From NCBI GenBank assembly GCA_950295325.1, contig OX485807.1:46902440-46966439 (forward strand): a stretch of 64,000 nucleotides of DNA, in the 5' to 3' direction. Made by a program: the position numbers and the translations under genes. Within the stretch, counting starts at the first letter, position 1; the number at the start of each line of letters is the position of its first letter. Positions 34,066 to 55,010 of this stretch are shown here, piece by piece. This DNA is from Polytrichum commune. Lineage: Eukaryota; Streptophyta; Polytrichopsida; Polytrichales; Polytrichaceae. The notes below the pieces were generated by a model, which was not told the DNA's origin, did no database searches, and saw nothing but the letters and a program-made list of their open reading frames with translations.

Positions 34066-36351
34066 CTATTTTCTGGAGGAGCAAGATAGTAGAAAGGCAC
34101 AATTACCAGATAGACTTGGACCTCCTTCATCAGAAAGTGTTAAGCCCCCACTGCCACCCCTTGACCCCATACCAAGACCCATTCCAAGGCCGTTGTCTCC
34201 ACCCACACCAGACCCTCCATTTGACCCAAAGTTCTCCACATTCCCCGACCCTGATAAAAATCCACCTCCATGACTATTACCTGACCCAAAAGCTCCTTCC
34301 AATGGAGACCCTTGGTGGTCAATTCCATTACCACCACCCTCCATCTCATGTAGAGGCATTGCAGGAGTGTGACCAGCAAATAAACCGATGTGCCCAAACA
34401 ATTTGTCCTTCCGAGAAAATGTGGTGCCACAGGAACACTGCCACTTGTCACGACCACAGTGCTTCTCATGAGTCTTCAAGTCTGCAACCACTGAAAACTT
34501 CTTTGACTTGCATTTCTGGCATGTGAGCACCTTTGGGCAATGGCTGCGACGATAGTGATTCTTCACACACAGCATGGTCTTCAAAGGCTGGAACTTGCGA
34601 TGCTTCTTGTTCCTCTTGCACCCCACATGAGGACAAGAGTAACGACGTGAACGGATCACAGTTGTATCCTGAGCTGCCCTATCAGGTCGGGCAAGCGCTG
34701 CTGCAGTTTTGTACTCATCACCATGACCACGCATATGCATCCTCAAGTTGGCATCCCTCTTGAAACCCTTCCCACAAATCTCACAGAAGTGTGTATGTTC
34801 AGCCAGGATCTCCATGGCATCCATCTCCACCAAGTCAAATGAACCAGGAGGCAAGGCCTCTCCATCGCTATCATCATCATCAGCACGTGAGTCAAGCTCG
34901 TGGTCATCAAGGCCTGAGTTCATTGGACCTCCATCAGGTGCTACAAAATTGTTTGGATCCCCACTTGCTCCAAAAGAAGTCCCCATTACATTGGATGTAC
35001 CACTTCCTACTCCGTTTCCTCTGCTTCTTCCACCTACAATGTTTTCAAAGTTCTTCCCTCCACCACCCACCTGATTGCGGAGTGCAGAATTACTCCCACT
35101 CCCATTCCCACCCCGATGTTGCCCACTTGCATTTTGTTGCCCTGAAGCTTCTCCATCGTTGTTCATTCCAGAAAACCCAGGACCTCCTCCAGTGGGAAAA
35201 CCAAGACCACAGTTGCCAGGAGCAACCCCTCCTCCGTTGCCACCTTCCACAGGCCCAGGAATTCCTCCTGACGAATTAAAGTTGGGTCTCACTGAGTTTC
35301 CCAACACAGGATTCCGGTTCTGGTTTACAGGAAGCACACTGTTCATCCCACTTTGTTGAAAGATATTCAATCCGGGATTCACAGCTGCCTGGAGAAGTTG
35401 GCTGAGAGGCAGCTCTGTTGGCGGCTGGCTTACCTGATTCACCACCTGGCTAGAGAACTGCTGTGGTAAGAACCCACTAGCTGCCAATGCAAGCTGGGAA
35501 ATGATACTCACTACAGCTGCACTTGCTGCTTGCTGCTGTGCAATGACCACATTGATGTCACTCTGGCAATGGGCAGTCTGGGAGATAAGTGGCACCAGTG
35601 CCTGCAGTTGTTGTATCTTGTGCTGAAGCATCGATAGATGGTTCATGATGCCTTGGACGTTTTTATCCACCATGGACTGGCTTGTTATATTCTCTCCAAA
35701 ATTCTGATTTCCCATCTGACTCAAAAATTGCTGTTGGTTAAAGTTCACCCCAGCATTTCCTTGCTGAGACTGTTGCAACATGCCCCCTTCACCACCTCTG
35801 CCCCCTCCATTCACATGGTTTTCACCACCATTATTTGCAACCATCTTTGAGAGTTGCTGCCATGAATCATGCGATTGTTGGTGATTCTGATGTGAATGAC
35901 CTTGTCCCTGAACAGAAAGAGTGGAACTTAATCAACAAATGATGGATGTGTATTTTCTTCAACACCATGGCATTTTGAATCATCACAGCCAAAGAGATAC
36001 ACAAAGCAATGGTTTTTTTTTTTTCTGATGTTCTGTGAAGATGAATGAAAGCATCAGGCACAAACAATGTCAGCCAAGGATCAGAATCACTTTTTTAGCC
36101 ACATAATATAACTAAACAGCCAAGAGTCCCTAGGATGGCAAGCTAACCTGGGTATTGACACCCAAGGCAAATCCAAGTGAGGATGAATGCACGGCCTGAT
36201 TTTGATTCTGATTCTGATTCTGATTTTGTTGCTGCTGCATGGAGGCCGAAAACTGTTTGAGTTGCTGACCAAGAAGAGAGAAATTTGCTGCACTGCTTGA
36301 TGAGGACTCTTTGCGAGGACTGGCCGGTGATTGCTGATTTCCACCCTGCAT
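34066..36351 (-). CDS. STOP1: STOP1-like C2H2 zinc-finger transcription factor
   Basis: Two coding exons, 36351-36148 and 35907-34066 (GT-AG, phase 0), give about 681 residues. STOP1-type factors act in the nucleus and control acid (proton) and aluminium tolerance genes in plants. Four zinc-finger regions lie at about residues 440-590: [20 protein letters not shown]; then [19 protein letters not shown] with NHYRRSHC; then [20 protein letters not shown]; then [20 protein letters not shown] followed by AGHTPA. These match the family closely, including LPPGS(F/Y) and the ILAEHTHFC lead-in. The N-terminal half is unusual: a Gln/Asn repeat at residues 39-52 and long Gly/Asn-rich stretches on both sides of the fingers make it longer than Arabidopsis STOP1 (about 500). 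A GT donor at 34107/34106 could instead splice to a short terminal exon near 33919, ending after about four residues. An acceptor at 36369 just before the ATG implies an intron in the leader. Confidence 0.9.
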
Positions 36352-39260: not shown

Positions 39261-39559
39261 AATACTGCTATGATTTTTCGGAATACCAGGCATTTCTCGG
39301 TATCTTCTGACCAGTGAGCACTGCGATTTCTGGCAAGTTGGCATGATTGTAGGGGTTAACTGAGCTTCTTACGGTAATAAGCTTGGTGAATAGCAGGTGT
39401 TCGAACCTGTTTGCTCTCCGTTCCCACCGTGCAGGAAGGCCCACGGTATCCCTATAATGGCGTCGGGAACCCTAACTCTCGGCCATTCTAGTGCCTGGCA
39501 CACGCTGGTGGGTCCCAGCATAGCTTTGGACCCCCCCCCGTGGGCACCCCAAACTTCAA

Positions 39560-40490
39560 TGACCCTCCCAGATGAAGATGGTATTCATCCATGTATACAC
39601 ACCAATTTTCAATCATGGGAGACTCAGATAATCCCACATAACATTATTCAGCTAATGAGTGGTGTTCAACTATTCTGATTTTATATTTAGTTTGAAGCAC
39701 TAGGACTTCGGCATCCGTAGTCTTTATTCTCGAATTTATTGATTGGGCCCATGAACACAGTTCATCAGCTTAGTTATATTATCCACACATCGCTTTTTAA
39801 AAGATTAAGAAGAAATAAATGAAAACACGATATTCCTATTATGATGCAATAAACCTTCCTTGCGGTTCAATGAATCTCCTAGATGAAGATGGTATTCATC
39901 CATGTATATACATCAATTTTCAATCATGGGAGACTCAGATAATCCCACATAACATTATTCAGCTAATGAGTTGTGTTCAATTGTTCTGATTTTATATTTA
40001 GTTTGAAGCACTAGGACTTCAACATCCGTAGTCTTTATTCTTGAATCTATTGATTGAGCCCATGAACACAGTTCATCAGCTAAGTTATGTTATGCACACA
40101 TCATTTTTTAAAAGATTAAGAAGAAATAAATGAAAACATGATATTCCTATTATGATGCAATAAACCTTCCTTGCGGTTCAATGACCCTCCCAAATGAAGA
40201 TGGTATTCATCCATGTATATGCACCAATTTTCAATCATGAGAGACTTGGATAATCCCACATGACATTATTCAGCTAATGAGTTGTGTTCAACTGTCCTGA
40301 CTTCATATTTAGTTTGAAGCACTAGGATTTCGGCATCCGTAGTCTTTATTCTCGAAACTATTGAATGGGTCCATGAACACAGTTCATCAGCTACGTAATG
40401 TTATGCACGCATCATTTTTTTAGAATATAAGAATAAATAACAATATTAAAACATGATATTCCTATTATGATGCAATAGACCTTCTTTGTG
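39560..40490. repeat. Tandem triplicate of a ~310-bp unit
   Basis: Three head-to-tail copies start at about 39560, 39870 and 40180, each with ATGAAGATGGTATTCATCCA near its start, AGTTTGAAGCACTAGGA in the middle and TATTATGATGCAATA near its end. They are about 90% alike by eye. A further diverged copy of the first part, with its left flank, lies at about 41030-41240. Non-coding. Confidence 0.85.
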
Positions 40491-40997
40491 GTTTATCGAC
40501 TATGCCATGTGGGGAAGAGTTCATGCCATGTCCCACCCTTACTAGTGACCATAGCTAGTGGACAACTCTTACTAGTATGGGGCATCTTTTCATTCACTTT
40601 TAGCCAGCAAACACTCAAAATCTGACTCACATTCAATCCAATTGATTGCTAAGAGCTCCGAAAAAATGCCCCGTATTGGTGGCAGTCGTCCACTAACTAT
40701 GCCCACCAATAATTATGGGCATGACCTTAGTGATAGTATTTGAAATGAGCCAAGATTTGACCTATGAGATGAGCAATGTGAACATGAATGCAATCGTGAC
40801 TTCTCATGTACCTAGTATGAACAGGAAGTATTTTAGGGAAAAACATTCTTGCAACTAGCTGCTTGTATCAATATATGTTGACTAATTAATCAAAGTTCAT
40901 GAGAAAAATTGATGTAAGATTTCTCATGATCTAGGTCTTTGGTCCACACCCATGACGAAGAGAAATCCACACCACATTTTAAAAGCCCGATCTCGCT

Positions 40998-43084: not shown

Positions 43085-44031
43085 TTACATTGCAACTACA
43101 TTACCTCCCACTTGCTCCTCACGTTCCTCAATATATTTACCAAAATCAACCAAAGGTGATTTGGAAGATTCATCCACCCCACCCACAATGGAAGCCTTGT
43201 TTCTTCTACTTGGACGCATTTCCAAATTACATCCAATATTGATACTATCATCTATAAATACAACATCTCTCATATGACCAAATACGTCCGAATGTGTTAT
43301 ATCCAATGACTTAGTTATTTACCTTCCCCATTGTTGGAAAATATTGTCCTATGTTCTTTATCCTCGATACAAGCTTCACAAATCAACGAAGATATGGGAC
43401 AAAAGAATTTCTCTAATATTTAGTCACTCACTATGATTTGAAGTGCATGAACATGTTTCACATTAAAATGTTCAAACTGACAATGTCAAACTCTAAATCC
43501 ATCATTTGTGTTTCTTCATGATGTATCAAATTGGCCACATTTGTACCATGCACGTTGGTAAATTTTATTTTATATAAATTTCCATTATTTAGTCCCATTC
43601 CAATCACATTTCCATTCAGACCTCTCACAATACATTCATTTAGGTTGAATTATAGTTTCAATCCATTTGACAAAAGTTTGCTCCCCGAAAGCAAAATTGC
43701 TTGTAACATGGGCACATGGAGGATATTCTTGATATGCATTCTCTTGATTTTGTCTGTTATTATTGCCTCAAATATAATGATATTCATTCCAATTGCTTCT
43801 ACGATGCTATCATCACCCAAATAAACACTACAGGTAGCAATAACCTCATATGTGTCAAATGCCATCCTAAAAAAATCATATGGTTTATTACTCCTAAATC
43901 TATAATTCACTTACACATGGTGTCCAAATGTGCTCCATTGTCATCTTCTTTAGTGGTGCTTGCATTCTTTTATCCTTGTTGTTTATTTTGTAATAAGACA
44001 ATACAATGTGGCCCAATTGGCTACAATAGTA
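43085..44031 (-). pseudogene. Ty1/Copia gag-pol remnant, 3' part
   Basis: Read on the minus strand from 44031, the sequence starts in the middle of a CCHC zinc knuckle (CSQLGHIV). It continues into the protease region around 43910, where the expected DSGA active site reads DLGV, with TYEVIATCSVYLGDDSIVEA and IKNILHVPMLQAILLS. It then gives a GAG-pre-integrase trace (CEACIEDKEHRTIFS near 43390). At about 43300 LDITHSDVFG, the start of the integrase, jumps straight to sequence normally found after it, so the integrase core is deleted. Reverse transcriptase and RNase H are absent. The 5' part of the same element lies at 50380-50434 and 53141-53712 beyond two insertions. Confidence 0.85.
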
Positions 44032-44114
44032 GGGGGAGTGCTATCTTGTGAGCGGTGAGCAGTGAGCGGTGAGCAGTGAGCGGTGAGCGATGAGCGGTAA
44101 TTTGTGAGCGGTGA
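44032..44114 (+). repeat. Left terminal inverted repeat with heptad array
   Basis: After the 15-bp outer end the sequence is nine near-perfect heptads of (G/A)TGAGC(G/A), interrupted once by GTAATTT. The same heptad occurs, inverted and more diverged, at the right end. Scattered further copies (GTGAGCAATG, TGTGAGCATG) lie out to about 44320. Such arrays are plausible transposase-binding sites. Confidence 0.85.
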
Positions 44115-44894
44115 AGAAAACAAAATATTTGGTAATAGGACCCCTAGTATCATATAACCGTGGCCTAAAGAAACAAATTTTTAGGGTTCAATAATAAGAA
44201 GATTGGGGAGGACAAACAATATGAATGCTAGATTGCAAGTAGTGAGCAATGAAAAAGACCAATATGTACACGACTCGGGGTTGCTAGTATGTGAGCATGC
44301 GAGTGTGAACCTGTGAGCCTTCAATTTTTTCCCGGTTATGGTTTTTAAATCCGTTGGGGGCCTATGATTGTAGAATTACATGTAAGGGTGTATAGCCCAA
44401 ATGAACAACAAATGAGAATGTTACTATAACAATTTTGTACTAAAAATGAACTAATATACATTCAATTGTTGAGATAATAATTATGTAATTGGAGACAATG
44501 TGTAAGCAAACTCATGTTGAAAACAAATGTAGCACGTTAGAATGTCTCACTATAATACACATCAATGTAAAATTTGAATACATCATAACACCATCATGAG
44601 GGTGACATTTACGAAGTCCAAAACATAAAGAACAACAAAAGTGGATTGTAGATATAAATCGGGTAGTAGGTTTAAATTATTGAAGTTCTTGGAAATCAAA
44701 TATCAAAAATAAAAATAATGGACAAATGATCCAAACCATCTAGAAGATAGTTGATGGACACATGCATATCAGCCACAGTAGCATCAAAGAGCTTCTCGGT
44801 CTCAATAGCCAATTGTCAAATACAAAATAAAAATTAGAAAAATTGAATGATTGAAAAATTATTAAAAAAATAAAAAACATAGACAAAAAATTAT

Positions 44895-46327
44895 CACTTG
44901 AGCCCACCAAGTAGCTTTATGAAGCCACTTAGGAAACTCTATATCATTGAATTTTGGTTTCGGAAACTTGAGAGCCTCACGAAGAGCAGGTGAACTGTTC
45001 CACCTCTCAAGCCACTTAATCTTCATAGATGTATCCATTGCCGAAGTTGCTAACATCAAAAGCTTTTCTTGAGTCATCTCATGATTTTCATCGTGAGTTT
45101 CATAATGAGACTTCACCTGCTCTAAGAACATAGGAGAATGTTTAGAATCTACAATGGGAAGATGTTTCTTTAGTTCCGAATGGAAAGTCAATCTCACCCT
45201 CTTAACAACTTTGAAAACAAATTCATCCATTGCACTTGAAGTCCAATATGTATGATCAGGCTATTTTTCATAAAATTTTCTTTGAGCAGTAGCAGCAGCA
45301 TCTCCCAACTCTTGCTACACCAGGGGAAAAACATATAAGAGTATCATAAATCACACATAATAAAAATAAGATGCAATAAAACATATAGTTATAGAAATAT
45401 ATATATATATACAAGACAAAAAAATGGGTAAAAAAATAATATTTTAGAAAAAATAACCTAGTATAGAAATCCATTAAGAGCCTCAACAGTTAAAGTTAAC
45501 CAAGTCCTATGTTTCGATTTTTGTTTGGCATTGTCGGCAATAAGATCTTCTTTGGAGACAACTTTTTCAAAATATGAATGTGGTTGCCCATCAATGCTTT
45601 AAATGCGGAAAAACTTATGAACAAGATTCGTACAAACATGGGATTTTTGGTTCCTCTTGACAAAATAAAACAACCAATGTTAAGCGAAGAAAAAAATATA
45701 TACAATAAAAAAAATTAAAAAGAAAACCAAATGAACCGAACAAATAAAAATAGAAGAATGAAGGAATTACCAATTCATTTCATGTGAAGCTACCGTTGCA
45801 ATATTTCCCTTGACGTACAAAATAATACTTTCAACAACATAATGTCAAGTATGATCATGTGTATGATCTCGATTAATAATGTGCAACCATGCTTGCAAAC
45901 GGTAATTTCTGTCCCACACCATGAACATTTTGCCAGAGAAAAATTTAAGGTTCTCACCAGTTTGCAATATTTTTTCAAAGACATCATTAGTCCGTATCCA
46001 ATTCTTACTTCATGATTCAATGATAATATCGGTAACATCTATTATTTTCCTCTCATTATTTTCTAAGGCCATGTAAAAAACCCCATTGCTTTCCATATAA
46101 CCACAACCAACAAAATGTGCAGTCAGGTTCATAATGTTATTTTTCAAAAAAAGCCTGACAACGGGCAATGCAACCATTCGACATAGTGGAACGTTGAATT
46201 TTGATTTTGCCCTTGGTTGATACCTCAACCGTTCAAGACGGGAAGATGTATTCACAATTTCTTTCTTAAAAAATACATGCAATTGCAACTCCAATTGATC
46301 TTCAGAAAGAGGTACAACTTTCATATC
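44895..46327 (-). pseudogene. Second gene of the MULE-like element, unknown function, decayed
   Basis: A minus-strand coding trace starting after an acceptor-like TTTAG at 46328. One frame covers about 46327-45775. It includes VVPLSEDQLELQLHVFF, LNLTAHFVGCGYMES-like and ENNERKIIDVTDIIIES blocks, then NWIRTNDVFEKILQTGENLK and KMFMVWDRNYRLQAWLHIIN, with two in-frame TGA codons where Trp would fit. A further exon-like frame at 45230-44902 (ELKKHLPIVDSKHSPMFLEQ, then FPKWLHKATWWAQ) ends at a GT donor. I recognise no catalytic domain. It is transcribed away from the transposase, the arrangement of a two-gene element, and is not related to any host gene I know. Confidence 0.6.
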
Positions 46328-46497
46328 TAAAGCACAAAAAATATCACCCATATGAAACACAAAAACAAATTAAAAGAAATATATACTTATGAAAGAGATC
46401 ACATATGTAAACTAAAATAATATGCAAAAACATTTATAAAAGTGAGAGTATACATAAGGGAAAACCACATATACAAAAAAAATTGAAATTTCAATAA

Positions 46498-47267
46498 GAC
46501 TGGCCGTTAATGGCCACCCTTGTTGGAGGACAAAATATTAAGGAAATGAATGTATACATGAAGAAAGAAACACATATAGAAAATAATATGAAATTTCAAT
46601 AAGGGTGGCCGTTAACGGCCATCATTGTTGAAGGAAAAAAATAGTAAGGAAATGGGTGTATACATGAAGAAAGAAACACATATAGAAAAAAATATGAAAT
46701 TTCAATAAGGGTGGCCGTTAACGGCCACCCTTGTTGGAGGAAAAAAATAAAGGAAATCAGTGTATACAAGAAGAAAAAAACACATATAGAAAAGAATATG
46801 AAATTTTAATAAGGATGGTCGTTAACGGCCACCCTTGTTGGAAGAAAAAAAATGAAGGAAATGAGTATATACATGAAGAAATAAACATGTATAGAAAATA
46901 ATCTGATTTTTCAATAAGGGTGGCCGTTAACGGCTACCCTTGTTGAAGGACAAAAAATGACGGAAATAAGTGTATACATGAAAAAAGAAACACATATACC
47001 AATAAATCTGAGATGCAACCAAGGGTGGTTGTTAACGGCCACACTTTTAGATGGAGCAAACATAAGAAATATATGTATATATGTGATTTTATTTCAAAAA
47101 AATTATGTTGTTAAATGAAGAGTGAAACCCAAAAAAGGGTGGCCGTTAACGGCTGCCCTAAACTAGAACAGAGAAGTTAGTATCATACAAAGGGTGGCCA
47201 TTGATGGCCGCCCTAAACTAGAACACAGAAGTTGGCATTATAGAAAGGGTGGCCGTTAACGGCTACC
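46498..47267. repeat. Array of nine palindromes centred on GTTAAC
   Basis: Nine copies of a 22-bp inverted repeat with core GGCCGTTAACGGCC lie at about 46498, 46602, 46709, 46812, 46917, 47021, 47137, 47192 and 47246. The first six sit in a tandem unit of about 105 bp (with TTTCAATAAGG before and TTGTTGGAGG after the palindrome); the last three are about 55 bp apart. The copy at 46709-46730 is a perfect palindrome. The array fills the space between the divergent genes of the MULE-like element. Confidence 0.92.
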
Positions 47268-47746
47268 AATTGGAAGAGAAATGCATCTTGATTTGAGTCA
47301 CTTTTTGGAGTTACTATAAAATTTTCAAATAATTTAATTTATTTCCGCAAAAAATCAAGTGCATAGATTATAGCCTTGCCATTTACTCCAATTTTTTTGA
47401 GAATTTTTGGAGATGATGTCAATTTTACATAAATCGCCAAAGTATACTGAAATTAATATGGTTAGATTTCCTGCATAAAATCTTCGTTTTTTGAAGATTT
47501 TAGAATAATCCAAGATGCTTTAATTGTTTTTTGGCTCTAAAACATGCAAAACAAAATCATTTTGTTCATGCTATATACCGTTGGAATCGTATTCTCAGCA
47601 TGCACAATATAGTATACATTACATACCTCCAAATTTATTTTGATTTTAAAGTTATTCTCTTACCATTTCGTTCGTACAACCTACCTCCATCTCCGCCTCA
47701 GAAGATTGTTCTTTTTTTTTGTATTGTGTGGCGTATTTCTCCATGG

Positions 47747-49473
47747 TTGCACGTGAGCGTACATGTCTTTTCCATTGGTCTGGAAGCTTGGATAAGGTGA
47801 CCCAAAAGTATATCAAACCATTCTTGCAGTTTCAACACAAGCAAATATGTAAGGATTACAAAGACGCGAAAACAATGGACAACACCGAGACTAAGTATCA
47901 TGTGATTCGTTTTTGGTGGTTGTCATCCGGATCTGCTTTGCTTTTCAGAGTGGTTGGGTTTTTGGCACTTTCGTTACAGACAATGGGGTGGTCATATGTT
48001 ATTTGTAAGTACATATCAAAATTCATTATTCAATGTCATTCATTTTTCTTCCATTGTTATATATATCTTATATTTTCTTATCCTTATATTTGTGTGTTGT
48101 CCATAGGATATGACAATAGAAGAACGTGCGGAAATGCCAACATGCAACCTTGCAGAGACTGTAGACAAAAAATGGCTCCAACAATCCGGCAACAAGATGA
48201 CTTGTTTATATGAAGCTACAGTCGACGACATGATCCGTGTCTTCATGCAAATTGCAAATTACCGGACATGGTTGAAAGGGGGTCTGATGGTAAAGGTCCT
48301 TATTTGGCATCCTTGAAACTTAAAGCAGTTGTCAGGTGTGGAGATTTAAAAATATTGGCTAATGCCACGAAGTCTTATCGAAAGGCAGAAGACGTCAACA
48401 CTAAAGATTGTACATTGGAAGGGTTAGAGCTTTTTGGTTTCACCAAACGCAAATTCAACCTATCACCGGGTGTTGATTGTGACTCTCATCGACCCGACAA
48501 AGTGAACTATTTCATTCATCGTCCCAACACCCGAGCAACTCGTCAACGCATAGAGGAATCGTTGAGTTCTGCAATTCATAGTGTGTCTCATACTACATCC
48601 GTGTTAGAGATTGTTTGTCTTACTTCTAAGTGGCACATTACAAGATTGCCACCCAACTCAGCCAAACGATGTTGGGCACTGCAGGCCATTACAGGGACTA
48701 TGTGCAATACCAAAGTCCGGATTGGAAAACGTGGCACACCTGCTCCGACATACAAAGGGCTTAGGAAGGAATTTTGCTCTTCCAACAATGTGGAGTATGA
48801 ATTTTGGTTTTGCCTTGATGATATCAAGCATTGTGTGAGTGGCAGTAAGATGAAATATGTGTTGTATTGGCCTATAGTACCCAACACATGGCCAGTGAAG
48901 ATAGGTACCAATCTATCGAGAGAGGAGGTTCCGGCACTTGAAGATGTTTAATTTCAACTACAGCAGAGGGAGATATTGTCCCCTCATCGTAGGCTTTTAA
49001 CAATCGCAACTCTTTCCATCCCTCGCTCGCATTTTTGTATGCTTCCAAACCCGGACGTCCACCCTACATTCAGGTTTGGGAAGACAGTGCATCGTAATCC
49101 AACAGCACCGCTCGCGGATCACAAAAACAAATGGGAGAGCACCGGACTTATGGAAGATTACTATGTGGTTGGAGTCACTGCCATTCCATATCCGGGCTTT
49201 GGAGTGATAATCAATATTGTCTCCAAGCAGGATATCACCTACCATGTCACAATTGGCGACATCTCGCATTGCACATGCCCGGATTTCACGAAAATGTCCT
49301 CCCATGCATTGGGAAAGAAAGGAAAATTGTTGTATTGTAAACATCTTTATTATGTGTTTAGATTTTTGTGTAAGGTGGATTACGAGAGTGACAAGTTCAT
49401 TCATGCACCTACATATACCTATAATGAGGTCATGCGACTACTTGAACTTGCTGGTATTGTAGAATGTGAATAA
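47747..49473 (+). pseudogene. MULE-like transposase pseudogene with SWIM zinc finger
   Basis: The trace begins at ARERTCLFHWSGSLDKVTQK and runs through QHKQICKDYKDAKTM and WWLSSG, then shifts frame to GFWHFRYRQWGGHML. A GT-AG intron follows (about 48004 to 48108). The next exon gives EMPTCNLAETVDKKWLQQSG and VDDMIRVFMQI, then a one-base shift at a run of G near 48280. The frame 48268-48951 contains DCDSHRPDKVNYF and WHITRLPPNSAKRCWAL. It ends in a TAA after EDV, and the same frame resumes with QLQQREILSPHRR and the SWIM finger (HCTCPDF ... YCKHLY) at about residues 100-130 of the last part, ending ELAGIVECE. Sequence for the N-terminal catalytic DDE core is missing upstream. Three or more lesions make it non-functional. 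Confidence 0.85.
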
Positions 49474-50160
49474 TATTGCAAGTGTTTTATTAAGTAACAT
49501 ATATTTGAATGTCAATAAATGACATGTTTTGGTTTGGATTATTATAATAAAAATTAGCAATAGACTAAAAGTATTTCAAATGATTCAGTAACTTCATTTT
49601 TATTTAGACTACGACCCAACCGTGAGCGGTTTGATTGATTCACACGGATAAATAATAACAAGTTTCTAAAAATAAAAAATAATCGAGAAGATTCTACGCA
49701 CATCCGCGTAATAACCTCTTCTTGGTATCCGCCTATAGATTATTCCTACTTTATCACTAGCTCAATTTGGGATAGCACCAGTCAATGTAACCAACCGGAT
49801 TCGAATCCGGGTTGATCCAGACCTAATACCAGTCTCTTACACAACTTGCATCCACAGGCAAATGTCTCAAAACCTAGTAGCTACCTACATATTGACTATT
49901 TCTAATATCTAATTTCTTTGTTTTTGTAGATTGTGGGCCTTAATTCAGCCCGTGAGCGGTTTGAGTGGTTCACAATTATGGCACCTACATATACGTATAA
50001 TGAGGTTATGCACCTACTTGAACTTGCTGGTGTTGTGGAATGTGAGTAGTTGTGCAAGTGTTGATTGTAACTACATGTATAAGGATGTCAATAAATGACA
50101 TGTATTGGTTTGGATTATAATAATAAAAATCAACAATGAATTGAAAGTGCTTTAAATGAT
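49407..50160. repeat. Duplicated transposase 3' end bracketing a tRNA-like segment
   Basis: The last ~165 bp of the transposase gene and its 3' flank (49407-49570) recur at 49981-50160, with HAPTYTYNEVM-type coding then a stop and AATGTCAATAAATGACATG. Between them lies about 400 bp that carries two copies of CGTGAGCGGTTTGA (49621 and 49951), i.e. a heptad-like core, and the tRNA-like segment annotated separately. Confidence 0.8.
49740..49815 (+). ncRNA. tRNA-like / SINE-type promoter remnant
   Basis: TAGCTCAATTTGGGATAGCA (49758-49777) resembles the D-arm/A box of a tRNA. GGATTCGAATCC (49797-49808) resembles a T-arm/B box, at the usual spacing. The T stem does not pair correctly and no acceptor stem is seen, so this is not an intact tRNA; a tRNA-derived SINE head or decayed tRNA is more likely. 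Confidence 0.4.
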
Positions 50161-50290
50161 CCATGGCAATAGGGCCCTTTCACATGTGCTTCATTTAAAA
50201 TACTGGCAATTTATAATTGAAAATATGCAATTAATTTGTCAAAATTTTGGTTGTGTACTCTAAACCCGTGTGTCTTTACTAAATTTGGAT

Positions 50291-50379
50291 TCATTGCTCA
50301 TATGTTACTGCTCATTGCTCATGTGTTACTGCTCACCGTTCACCGCTCACTGCTCATCGCTCATAAGATAGCTTCCCTC
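50291..50379 (-). repeat. Right terminal inverted repeat with heptad array
   Basis: On the minus strand from 50379: the outer end with CTATCTTATGAGC, then heptads ATGAGCG, ATGAGCA, GTGAGCG, GTGAACG, GTGAGCA, then copies spaced by GTAACA(C/T). It is the inverted partner of 44032-44114 with more divergence. Confidence 0.85.
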
Positions 50380-50434
50380 ACAATAGTAGCACATCTCGAC
50401 GTAATAATATTGCAATGTCGTCACCTTAGGATTT
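50380..50434 (-). pseudogene. Ty1/Copia gag remnant, middle part
   Basis: Only 55 bp separate the two insertions. On the minus strand it encodes the end of the gag linker (a GDDIAIL trace in one frame) and then EMCYYC, the first half of the zinc knuckle that continues at 44031. It carries the right-hand MULE target duplication at its low-coordinate end and the TAGGATTT duplication (50427-50434) at the other. Confidence 0.75.
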
Positions 50435-53140
50435 AAGGTTTAAGCCCAGAATACTTATTTCTAGCATAATTTCCTCAAATCTTAATCAATGTTAGAGTGT
50501 TTTATATGCTTTGGATGCGTCTTTCAAAGGCGCATCCAATGCACCTATCCGTTTGTGAATCAAAATTGTAGAAAAACAGTTATACTAGAAAGAAACATTA
50601 TGAGCTTAAACCCAAAATGTTTCTTTCGAGCATAATTTCCTCAAATCTTCATCAATGTTGGAGTGTCTTTCAAAGGCGCATCCAATGCACCTATCCGTTT
50701 GTGAATAAGAGTTGTAGAAAAACAATTATGATAGAAAACCCATAATGTTTCTTTCTAGTATAACTTCCTCGAATCTTGATCAATGTTGAAGTGTCTTATA
50801 TGCTTTGGATGCGTCTTTCAAAGGCGCATCCAATGCACCTATCCGTTTGTGAATCAGAATTGTAGAACAACAATTATGCTAGAAAGAAGCATTCTGAGCT
50901 TAAACCCATAATGCTTCTTTCTAGCACAACTTCTTCAAATCTTCATCAATGTTGGAGTGTCTTTCAAAGGCGCATCCAATGCACCTATCCGTTTGTGAAT
51001 CATAGTTGTAGAAAAAAAATTATGATAGAAAGCCCAGAATTTTTTTTCTAGCATAATTTCCTCGAATCTTGATCAATGTTAGAGTGTCTTATATGCTTTG
51101 GATGCGTCTTTTAAAGGCGCATCCAATGCACCCATCCGTTTGTTAATCAGAGTTGTAGAAAAACAGTTATGCTAGAAAGAAGCATTTTGAGCTTAAACCC
51201 ATAATGCTTCTTTCTAGCATAACTTCCTCAAATTTTCATCAATGTTGGAGTGCCTTTTATGCTTTGGATGCGTCTTTGAAATAAATATCCAATGCACCCA
51301 TCCGTTTGTGAATCAGAGTTGTAGAAAAACAGTTATGCTAGAAAGAAACATTATGAGCTTAAACCCATAATGCTTCTTTCTAGTATAACTTCCTCAAATA
51401 TTCATCAATGTTGGAGTGTCCTATATGCTTTGGATGCGTCTTTGAAAGGCGCATCCAATGCACGTATCCGTTTGTGAATCAGAGTTGTAGAAAAATAATT
51501 ATGATAGAAAACACATAATATTTTTTTCTAGCATAACTTCTTCGATTCTTGATCAATGTTAGAGTGTCTTATATGCTTTGGATGCGTCTTTCAAAGGCGC
51601 ATCTAATGCACCCATCTGTTTGTGAATCAGAGTTGTAAAAAAACAGTTATGCTAGAAAGAAGCATTTTGAGCTTAAACCCAGAATGCTTCTTTCTAGTAT
51701 AACTTCCTCAAATCTTCATCAATGCTGGAGTGTCTTTCAAAGGTGCATCCAATGCACTTATCCGTTTATGAATCAGAGTTGTAGAAAAAAAATTATGCTA
51801 AAAAGCGTAGAATACTTCTTTCTAGCATAATTTGCTCAAATCTTCATCAATGTTGGAGTGTCTTATATGCTTTGGATGCGTCTTTCAAAGGCGCATCCAA
51901 TGCACCTATTATTTTGCGAATCGGAGTTGTAGAAAAAACGTATTCTAGAAAGAAGCATTCTGGATTTAAATCCAGAATGTTTTTTTTTAGCATAACTTCC
52001 TCAAAACTTGATGAATGTTGGAATGTCTTATATGCTTTAGATGCGTCTTTCAAAGGCGCATCCAATGCACCTATCCGTTTGTGAATCAGAGTTATAGAAA
52101 AAAACTATGCTAGAAAGAAGCATTCTGGGCTTACATCCAAAATTCTTCTTTCTAGCATAACTTCCTCAAATCTTGATCAATGTTGGAGTGTCTTTTATGC
52201 TTTTAATGCGTCCAATGCAACTTTGCATTTAGCAATCAAAGTTGTAGAAAAAAAATTATGGGTTGTTGAATGTGGCTGGGTATCTTAGGAAGTTATAAAA
52301 ATGTTTTAAATTATATTATTTTGTTTTTGCAACATTCGAGCTTTCCACGGGAAATTATTCATACATGAAACTTTCAATGGATTCTCAAATGCCCATCCCG
52401 GATGTGCATAGGAGGGCTTTTGATGCCCTAAGATTAGGGGATGAATTTGAGGTTGATTTGATTGATTTGAGCGTCTCTGATGAGGAATTCCTAGAGGGGG
52501 AGCCCCTTATGCCTCCTTTAGAAGAGGAGGAGGAGGAGCTGGTTATGCCACCTCTAGAAGATGATGTGGATGAAGACTTATATGTGCCCCCTTTACATGA
52601 TGAGATGCTAGTGGGAGAAGACGTGCCCTTGCTGCCAATTGCAGAGAGACCTAGAGGTGTAGATGGCGAGGAGGAGCCTAATCTTCGTCGTATTTTTTCT
52701 CGTACCAATCTGACGATGCCTAGGGCATGTACCTTATCACGATTTGTTCTTCTTGTGGGGTCCTCTGTGGATTTGTCGCATGACACTAAGCTCAATGATC
52801 CTAGGCGAATGAATATGGATGCAACCTGTTTTTTAATGTTGATTTTTGATTTGCCTGATTTATTTGGGATTATGGCACGTCCCGCCAATCGTCGAGTGAA
52901 GATCAGGGATCTAGTTGAGTTTAGCGATTGGCTACGTGTTATCTCTGACCCGATTGTCGTGAGGATTTATGCTGGGAGCGATCGCGATGAGTGGGATAGT
53001 TTTGGGGCTAAGTTGGTGGAGATGTTGAGGGTTCCTTTGGGTTTGATCTTAACCTGCAGTAATGATAGTCATATTCTATCTCGCAATCATGTTAATGTGT
53101 CAGTGGTTGCCATGTCGCAGGCCTTGCATGTTTTAGGTGC
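50435..53140. mobile_element. Insertion of hairpin satellite plus ORF into Copia gag
   Basis: A 2706-bp segment flanked by the direct repeat TAGGATTT (50427-50434 and 53141-53148). Removing it joins two gag pieces (ending LMHKI and starting before GDD) that are contiguous in related Copia gags, so it is a true insertion. An 8-bp duplication suggests a hAT-like or similar integration, but the ends (AAGGTTTAAGCC and, inverted, GCACCTAAAACA) are not inverted repeats of each other. It consists of a satellite array (to about 52260) and one ORF reading to and beyond its right border. The class is unknown. Confidence 0.65.
50440..52260. repeat. Satellite array, ~147/164-bp units with two hairpins each
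   Basis: About twelve head-to-tail units. Most hold GGATGCGTCTTT-C-AAAGGCGCATCC (a near-perfect inverted repeat; several units are trimmed to CTTTCAAAGGCGCATCC) and then CCGTTTGTGAATCAGAGTTGTAGAAAA. Many go on to a second inverted repeat, TGCTAGAAAGAAGCATT ... AATGCTTCTTTCTAGCA (17-bp perfect stem in the copy at 50878-50927). Spacing alternates between about 147 and about 164 bp. No coding frame is conserved between units. Confidence 0.9.
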
Positions 53141-53799: not shown

Positions 53800-55010
53800 C
53801 TCAATCAACCCCTCTTAAGCTAAAAAAATCCCTCGAACTTCAAATCTACTCTAATCAAATTCTCTTACTTTTAGTCCACTCAAGTTGAACCCCCTCGAAC
53901 CCAAATGAACATTTGAAACTTTAACCCATTCAAGTCACGCTCTTTTGCTCTCAAATGTGTCTTTGCACATTCAATGCACTTAAGTCATATATTTTGGACT
54001 TAAAATTGGCCCTTTTGCCTTCCAAAATGCATTTGCATCCTTAATCCACTCAAGTCATAATAATCATTATATTCAGTAATCGGAGACTTTTACATGATTT
54101 TGAGACTATTGAAAGACGTAGTTTTTCAAATAAAGAACAAGAAAAACACAAAAATATATTCAATGTGACTTAATAAAGTGATTTGCATGGGCGGCACTAA
54201 CCAATTTGGCACAAATACATGTCATCACAATAAGAAATTGAACTAGATATTAAATCATTTGCATTTATTTTGAGACTTTCCAAAGTCTCTAATTAACGAA
54301 TATAGTGATATATCATTTTAAACTAAAATGAGCCCTTTTGGTCTCTAATGTGTTTTTGCACCCTCAATCTACTCATGTCAAATTGTTGAACTCAAATGAT
54401 TTTTTGTTTAAATACATCTTTGCACCTTCAAATCATGCCCTATTGAATTATAATATGCACTTGCATCATTAAATCACTCAAATCAACTCATTTTCAACTC
54501 ATATGTACTTATGCACCTTCAAATCACTCAAATCAAGTCCTCTTCAATTCAAACGTGCATATGCACCCCTCAAACCACTCAAATCAAGTCCTATTCAAAT
54601 CTAATGTGATTTTGCATCCTCAAGTTACTCCAATTAGGCCTTCTTCAACTCCAATATGCCTTAGCACTCCCAATACGTTCAAATTATGTCTTCTACAACC
54701 TAAATGACCTTAATACTTTCAAATGTGCACAATTGCACTCAACAACCTCAACTTAGGTCTTCTTCAACTCAAATGATCTTAATACCGTCAAATATGCACA
54801 ATTTGTATTCAACAACCTTAAATCATGCCCTCTTCATTTCAAATGAGTTTAATATCCTTAAATGTGTACAATTGCACTTCACAACCTCAAATCATATCCT
54901 CTTCAACTCAAATGACCTCTAATACACTCGAATATGCACAAATGCACTCAACAAACTCAAATCACCATTCAATTGCATCAAGTATGCATTCAAGCATTAT
55001 AAGCACTCAA
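53800..55010. repeat. Degenerate minisatellite
   Basis: Repeats of roughly 50-75 bp built on CTCAAATCA-(T/A)(G/C)-CC(T/C)TCTTCAACTCAAAT followed by TGCA(C/A)-TTGCAC. It is interrupted at about 54060-54310 by unrelated AT-rich sequence. The small frames here come from the repeat and are not genes. Confidence 0.75.

Follow-up and report, generated by a model that had tools for sequence, protein, structure and literature searches.

We analysed a stretch of 64,000 nucleotides from the moss Polytrichum commune (assembly GCA_950295325.1, contig OX485807.1, positions 46,902,440 to 46,966,439 of the forward strand; hereafter the window), in which positions 44033-50379 form a DNA element of 6,347 bp with inverted ends and a 10-bp target-site duplication. 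Two decayed, divergent genes lie inside, gene B on the minus strand and gene A on the plus strand, with tandem arrays of palindromes between them. Searching the 408-Mb assembly (64 contigs, the seven largest together about 406 Mb; the window is C5:46902440-46966439) recovered longer relatives with the same ends, including element A (C5, L021 + L017 + L018; 12.7 kb) and element B (C3, L022 + L020; 11.7 kb), each with matching ends and a perfect 10-bp duplication. The plastid PsaB in the assembly scores highest against the PDB chains 8htu, 6l35 and 7ksq (1705-1701 bits, the next being 1667 and 1630), which belong to Physcomitrium photosystem I, in keeping with a moss host. C and L numbers are our handles for contigs and loci. 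The features of the window copy, with deletions given relative to element A, are as follows.

44023-44032: left target-site duplication, ACAATAGTAG, 10 bp, 10/10 identical to 50380-50389
44033-44115 (+): left terminal inverted repeat, GGGGAGTGCTATCTT and then GTGAGCG heptads
44711-44714: junction of deletion 1, with 2,262 bp lost (methyltransferase half of gene B); the aligned pieces (A to 3592 and from 5855) overlap by 4 bp
44862-45260 (-): gene B remnant, predicted exon 3 (PDPxHWTSS...KATWWAQ), with homologous frames in L017, L060 and L024
45496-45714 (-): gene B remnant, predicted exon 2 region, frame-shifted
45790-46369 (-): gene B remnant, predicted exon 1, a conserved N-terminal domain ending FMVWDxNxRLQAW and split by a stop at 46010-46012
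46443-47046: tandem array, 105-bp unit x 5.8, with palindromes of the AGGGTGGCCGTT-AACGGCCACCCT type
47134-47263: second array, 55-bp unit x 2.4, with the same kind of palindrome as the 105-bp array
47733-47740: junction of deletion 2, with 3,369 bp lost; 8 bases unaligned between the aligned pieces (A to 9633 and from 13003)
47743-48003 (+): gene A remnant, last part of predicted exon 1 (MVARERTCLFHW...RQWGGHML), end approximate, frameshift at about 47930-47945
48109-49473 (+): gene A remnant, predicted exon 2, with a frameshift within 48214-48316, a stop at 48949-48951, the region of the third acidic residue (NLAE) and SWIM
49240-49359 (+): SWIM zinc finger, CTCPDF...CKHLYYVF (PF04434, E = 0.0022, 18.0 bits, below the cut-off of 19.6)
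49405-49587 and 49981-50163 (+): 3' end of gene A, present as a 183-bp direct repeat (81% identical)
50290-50379 (-): right terminal inverted repeat, ending AAGATAGCTTCCCTC
50380-50389: right target-site duplication, ACAATAGTAG, 10 bp

Borders and internal deletions

The window element ends in the inverted pair GGGGAGTGCTATCTT/GAGGGAAGCTATCTT, and a repeat search of the window detects inverted arms of 56 nucleotides with 84% complementarity (44040-44095 and 50317-50372), the left end carrying 9.6 copies of the GTGAGCG heptad at 44048-44114. Chance does not account for these borders: the ends and the 10-bp duplication recur, and a genome search for the exact 21-bp left end returns 222 occurrences (108 + 114), whereas its reversed control returns 0. 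In a survey of 20 elements (the window copy, elements A and B, L019, ten B-type pairs and six short copies), both ends were located in 18, and the 10-bp duplication is perfect in 13, window included, and matches at 9/10 positions in 2; the window's two ends together with a perfect duplication thus recur in 12 of the 19 other elements. The duplication of L056/L055 scores 4/10, yet its ten letters are present beside an expanded G run. L031/L032 and L039/L040 have both ends and no duplication, and for L049/L050 and L052/L051 the right end is absent from the piece fetched. Element C, of a third type, has the left end and no recognisable right end; its match to the window's right half breaks off early. 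Much of the original prediction for this locus therefore stands: inverted ends about 6.35 kb apart, placed to within 1 bp, heptad termini, central palindromes and a second, divergent decayed gene are all found, and the same ends are paired in other elements, contrary to the possibility it raised that they never occur together. Its 9-bp duplication, described as extendable to 10, is real and measures 10 bp.

Alignment with element A places two large gaps inside the window copy, which lacks A3593-5854 and A9634-13002. The second removes the Cys/His-rich region of gene A and both catalytic aspartates, D1 and D2. L019, on the same chromosome as the window, is collinear with the window copy through both junctions at 95% identity, so the double deletion is most simply a single event that was later amplified. 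We surveyed spacing at the best 60 of 150 scored genome matches to window 46010-46369, within gene B exon 1. The start-to-start distance from gene B to the SWIM exon is 2.8-3.4 kb, the window's spacing, at 15 of the 60 (window included) and 6.0-7.5 kb at 8; for the remaining 37, no SWIM hit among the 150 scored falls within 20 kb. The window copy is an internally deleted, non-autonomous, amplified derivative of a multi-copy moss DNA transposon family. We accordingly give next to no credence to the reading of 44033-50379 as a complete, full-length two-gene Mutator-like element (MULE), as originally proposed: the copy does have both ends, the duplication and what remains of two genes, but the 11.7- and 12.7-kb relatives with the same ends hold gene parts missing from the window, D1 and D2 included, the window relic has frameshifts and stops, and the transposase frame continues across the position of junction 2 in L017 and L020.

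Gene A and its affinity to MULE transposases

In the long copies gene A is predicted from open frames as a 742-amino-acid exon 1 frame and a 455-amino-acid exon 2 frame, which together hold, in order, a Cys/His-rich region, D1 (FDH), D2 (FMAD), CxFHW, E (NLAE) and SWIM. D1 and D2 lie 65-66 residues apart and D2 and E 129-130, a D-66-D-130-E pattern. What is left of exon 1 in the window falls in two open reading frames (47650-48213 and 47906-48106), recognised by comparison with the frame in L017 and L020; the SWIM finger of L020 and that of L072 match PF04434 less well (E 0.076 and 0.17) than that of the window, and cross-matches of both copies of the 3'-end duplication are also present in A, L019 and L020. 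Ratios of non-synonymous to synonymous substitution rates (dN/dS) are 0.086 (A versus B) and 0.098 (C versus B) for exon 2 and 0.22 (A versus B) for exon 1. At its SWIM end the window relic has ratios of 0.27-0.32; the value of 0.66 for the window's whole exon 2 is inflated, having been computed across the frameshift. Judged by its sequence, gene A is a DDE-plus-SWIM transposase gene under purifying selection.

The superfamily of this transposase is harder to assign. MuDR, a two-gene MULE (mudrA/mudrB), offers a precedent for the gene number. MULEs are described in the excerpted account of PMC6446971 as having 8-11-bp duplications, inverted ends, a SWIM finger in many cases and a second open reading frame in some; 'methyl' and 'Physcomitrella' are absent from the main text of that paper. 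The moss element shares a duplication length in this range (10 bp), the terminal inverted repeats and SWIM, which is frequent and not universal in MULEs. When a trimmed gene A core was compared with 11 MULE cores of the same genome, hhalign returned E = 0.005 and a score of 26.1, and the alignment brought D2 and CxxH into line with their counterparts; no column shuffle out of 60 scored above 23.8, and the scores for three unrelated profiles were 11.7-17.5. Several results weigh against a MULE assignment: the hhalign probability is 7%, gene A has no match to PF10551 or to any other transposase profile in Pfam, PHROGs or NCBIfam, and its structure model has a mean predicted local distance difference test (pLDDT) score of 39. 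Whole gene A compared with four MULEs by hhalign gave no match, and a PDB profile search gave two chance-level hits only (E 0.42 and 2.3).

These results raise the alternative that the family is a separate, undescribed superfamily of DDE transposons with SWIM and 10-bp duplications, as would fit the hhalign values and the silence of the profile libraries on gene A, even though PF10551 readily finds MULEs in this genome (142 matches among 150 scored candidates). We regard this as rather unlikely, given a duplication length inside the range in the excerpt of PMC6446971, a D-D-E spacing of 66/130 against 59-71/114-132 in three MULEs of the same genome, and the shared CxxH after D2, N-x-x-E context and SWIM after E. 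We therefore describe gene A as having a weak affinity to MULEs: of the original 'MULE-type transposase relic', the SWIM-bearing relic on the plus strand and the accompanying duplication are supported, and the MULE type is plausible.

Gene B and its pairing with gene A

Gene B of the long copies is predicted from open frames to have several exons encoding an N-terminal domain and a C-terminal methyltransferase domain. The clearest case is the C type, in which a single-exon frame of 577 amino acids includes the whole methyltransferase domain (L061:6427-8157 and L064:2082-3812) and PF01555 scores above its cut-off of 26.7, at 32.4 bits (E = 1.1e-7, positions 1-216 of 221) and 35.3 bits (E = 1.5e-8, positions 163-216), respectively. 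The A- and B-type pieces align to the C type. Compared with three prokaryote-type methyltransferases (L075-L077), gene B gives hhalign E = 2.6e-7 and a probability of 93% over 197 columns that span motifs IV to II; an alignment combining sequences of the L059/L060 lineage with those of A, B and C matches DpnA in the PDB at E = 1.4e-6; and B-type gene B matches a PHROG DNA methyltransferase at E = 3.1e-5. A tblastn search of phages with the methyltransferase piece returned 37 records, with a best listed E of 3e-3, and all 15 records listed are annotated as methylases or methyltransferases. On these profile matches we assign the C-terminal part of gene B to the N6-adenine/N4-cytosine (N6A/N4C) DNA methyltransferases. 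Sequence similarity agrees with the beta class of these enzymes (DpnA, CcrM, RsrI), as does the motif order of IV followed by X, I and II, which we take to be that of the beta class.

Whether the domain would be an active enzyme is doubtful. The canonical motif IV of N6A/N4C methyltransferases is (D/N/S)PP(Y/F/W), and an intact motif IV is not what the five sources of gene B show: L061 has DIPY, as against DIPD in L064, EYPD in L060, DYPD in A and QFPD in B, so that xxPD replaces the beta-class motif in four of five; motif I is DLxxxTGxS-like. With motif IV degenerate in most types, catalysis is in question and gene B may bind DNA rather than methylate it. The family-wide assignment has further points against it. 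PF01555 exceeds its cut-off only in C-type copies, the B-type piece reaching E = 0.05 and A-type pieces giving no match; a whole-genome PF01555 search listed only two chromosomal matches; the AlphaFold model of gene B has a pLDDT of 41; and the exons of both genes are predictions from open frames alone.

The N-terminal domain is 37-57% identical to that of L060 between lineages and 87% identical in L059. It has no relative in the libraries searched; tblastn against phages gave 2 hits (E 5-6), and a PDB profile search gave katanin only, at a best E of 0.015. A ParB domain, suggested by the motif VWDGNHRLQAW, is supported by no test and stays no more than a lead: gene B has no ParB match in Pfam or NCBIfam, hhalign comparison with four ParB proteins was negative, and a genome search with PF02195 (ParB) hit only the small contigs C12 and C23. 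Separately, small contigs C10, C12 and C23 carry prokaryote-type ParB and/or N6_N4 methyltransferase genes, among them a 443-amino-acid ParB-methyltransferase fusion (L075, C12:28400-30800) with a relative 75% identical in a viral contig. Prokaryotic relatives of L075 were found at 3 loci per scan in viral contigs and at none in the genome contigs searched. C10, C12 and C23 probably entered the assembly as contaminants from bacteria or phages.

Gene B is consistently paired with gene A. We examined 138 methyltransferase-exon loci. A head-to-head gene A, on the opposite strand and the expected side, stands within 20 kb of 109 of them (median 8.0 kb), and 3 have a gene A within that distance but differently arranged; in 200 trials of random placement the mean was 0.7 and the maximum 3. 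The 138 loci derive from 150 listed rows (151 matches), after setting aside ten second fragments of listed loci and two further rows (C2:57908100 and C2:60381571) that have no gene A hit within 20 kb and would make the count 109/140; the gene A lists are the best 150 each of 2301 and 1880 candidates. In A, in B and in 8 of 10 further B-type pairs, the divergent methyltransferase-transposase pair lies between matching ends that are flanked by a perfect 10-bp duplication. The same head-to-head pair occurs, in one copy each, in L060/L072 (lineage E; gene A 46-53% identical to that of the window family) and in L073/L023 (lineage D; 50-61%). Terminal repeats were sought in L060/L072 and not found, a point against the overall explanation given below.

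Within this stable arrangement the two genes have diverged very unequally. Gene A exon 2 is 97% identical between A and B, and 92-97% across the A, B and C types, whereas the second methyltransferase exon of gene B is 34% identical between A and B. A common gene A beside so different a gene B points to exchange of the left half of the element. The same disparity would suit the view that gene B is captured cargo, in the manner of a Pack-MULE, and has no function for the element; MULEs often capture genes, and constraint is slight in two close pairs, with dN/dS of 0.72 for two close C-type methyltransferase copies and 0.93 for the N-terminal domains of L023 and L024. Those two values also count against a general role for gene B, since they mean that not all gene B pairs are constrained. 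We nevertheless hold cargo to be very unlikely, because the head-to-head pairing is seen in three lineages whose gene A copies have diverged, and because gene B is represented by at least 138 methyltransferase loci and is under purifying selection in the L059/L060 pair (dN/dS of the methyltransferase 0.136, of the N-terminal domain 0.056).

Palindrome arrays and the proposed accessory role of gene B

Between genes A and B, four of the five lineage types carry tandem arrays built on long palindromes, one per unit, whose sequence is specific to the type. Units of the window arrays are centred on GGTGGCCGTTAACGGCCACC-like palindromes. Element A and the window share AGGGTGGCCGTT-AACGGCCACCCT, the B type has ACCCTGTGCGTT-AACGCACAGGGT plus AGTTTGGGTCGN-NCGACCCAAACT, the C type has TGTTTGTGCGCN-AGCGCACAAACA and the L060 lineage has GGGGGTGCCGTT-AACGGCACCCCT. 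Palindromes number 4 in the intergenic stretch versus 1 in the rest of the element or locus for the window, 11 versus 0 for A, 17 versus 4 for B and 4 versus 1 for C, and shuffles of the intergenic stretches average 0-0.5. Across the genome GTGCGTTAACGCAC has 724 occurrences and its reversed control 0; for GGCCGTTAACGGCC the corresponding counts are 213 and 2. Array type follows gene B type: among the first listed places, 23 of 24 A-palindrome clusters lie near an A-type gene B and 0 near a B-type gene, and 7 of 8 B-palindrome clusters lie near a B-type gene B and 0 near an A-type gene, compared with the gene lists of C1 and part of C2. One A- and one B-palindrome cluster (C2:30654934-30655053 and C1:461579-462634) have no gene B hit listed nearby and are possibly decayed or array-only. 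A second B-type array (GTTTGGGTCG..CGACCCAAAC) is also found inside the gene A intron (L020 7427-7515), and looks expanded in the L005 intron, as judged from translated frames only.

The best explanation overall, and one we consider probable, is that the window copy is a deleted member of a two-gene MULE-like family in which gene B is an accessory gene acting on its own array. Gene A would encode a divergent transposase of the MULE superfamily, able to mobilise by cut and paste whatever copies have the terminal repeats and heptads, the dead window copy included, which would explain the spread of dead deletion copies. The accessory protein would most likely bind its own palindrome array as a dimer, as the symmetry of the palindromes suggests, and act there on the element's DNA or chromatin, either regulating the two divergent promoters or shielding the element from host silencing, in the way that VANC serves VANDAL elements.

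Parts of the array evidence run counter to this proposal. Lineage D (L073/L023) has no array, with 1 palindrome in its intergenic 8.6 kb and 1 elsewhere against a shuffle mean of 0.5. The L060 lineage has 5 palindromes in the intergenic stretch and 6 outside it, and a second array separates the last two coding frames of its gene B. The array is also physically linked to gene B, and the two would be co-inherited whether or not one binds the other; the match between their types, because they are adjacent, shows a common module and not binding. There is a serious if lesser chance that the arrays are instead bound by the gene A protein, are satellites that form hairpins, or make up a host-derived bidirectional promoter module. 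Their position between two divergent promoters, the capacity of long palindromes to form hairpins and the occurrence of arrays within introns too (L060 2378-3986 and L020 7427-7515) would all fit such roles, but the A, B and C types differ in their palindromes despite the near identity of gene A exon 2, and array type accompanies gene B type.

An accessory role for gene B has parallels in two known systems. The closest precedent with experimental tests behind it is VANC. In Arabidopsis, VANDAL elements are MULEs with an extra gene, as the MULE-like moss family has, and the excerpt of PMC5735166 describes VANC as binding element-specific motifs that are multiplied by tandem repetition in introns and upstream regions. 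Element-specific noncoding motif arrays that track the accessory gene are found in the moss family as well, lineage D excepted. The VANC21 motifs are 9-mers in one orientation (YAGTATTAY), and 'palindrom' does not appear in PMC5735166, whereas the moss arrays are palindromic; nor does the excerpt of that paper mention a methyltransferase domain in VANC, unlike moss gene B. Algal transposons with ParB-methyltransferase genes have been reported (PMC12477816), the sole description of such a transposon gene found in the literature searched, with none there for a moss or a MULE. In the excerpt of that report, the accessory gene of brown-alga Sola-1 lies opposite the transposase strand in a large DNA transposon, as here, has a predicted N4C/N6A methyltransferase domain, likewise as here, and is proposed to bind and modify its own element, much as we propose for gene B. 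The systems differ in transposase and host (Sola-1 in a brown alga, a MULE-like DDE/SWIM transposase in a moss) and in the ParB-like domain of the algal class, which is without support in moss gene B; palindrome arrays, present in the moss elements, go without mention for Sola-1 in the excerpt.

Outside the element, the window holds an open frame of 621 amino acids at 34066-35931 on the minus strand, about 8 kb away, with STOP2-like C2H2 zinc fingers (PF23115 1.2e-18, PF23118 3.2e-18); on these matches it is probably a STOP1/STOP2-type transcription factor gene. A large tandem array at 50458-52195 (units of about 146-314 bp) starts about 70 bp past the right duplication of the element, and further arrays lie at 39555-40493 and 54679-54964, with units of 311 bp and about 69 bp.

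The interest of the family lies in the long relatives rather than in the window copy. With them, methyltransferase accessory genes, reported before in transposons of algae, are also found in a land plant, in a MULE-like lineage. There, a nearly constant transposase goes with three or more different accessory genes, every one of which has a palindrome array of its own, so that the co-evolution of a transposon accessory protein with its DNA target becomes directly testable. We advance, tentatively, the idea of a self-addressing epigenetic module in transposons of land plants, in which the gene B of each subfamily would recognise its own array and the cassette of gene B and array would be exchanged between elements with nearly the same transposase. 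If true, this module would be a plant parallel to VANC built from a prokaryote-type DNA methyltransferase, perhaps a pseudo-enzyme that only binds. The family also invites the question of whether a methyltransferase fold remains useful to an element once the fold's catalytic motif has been altered.

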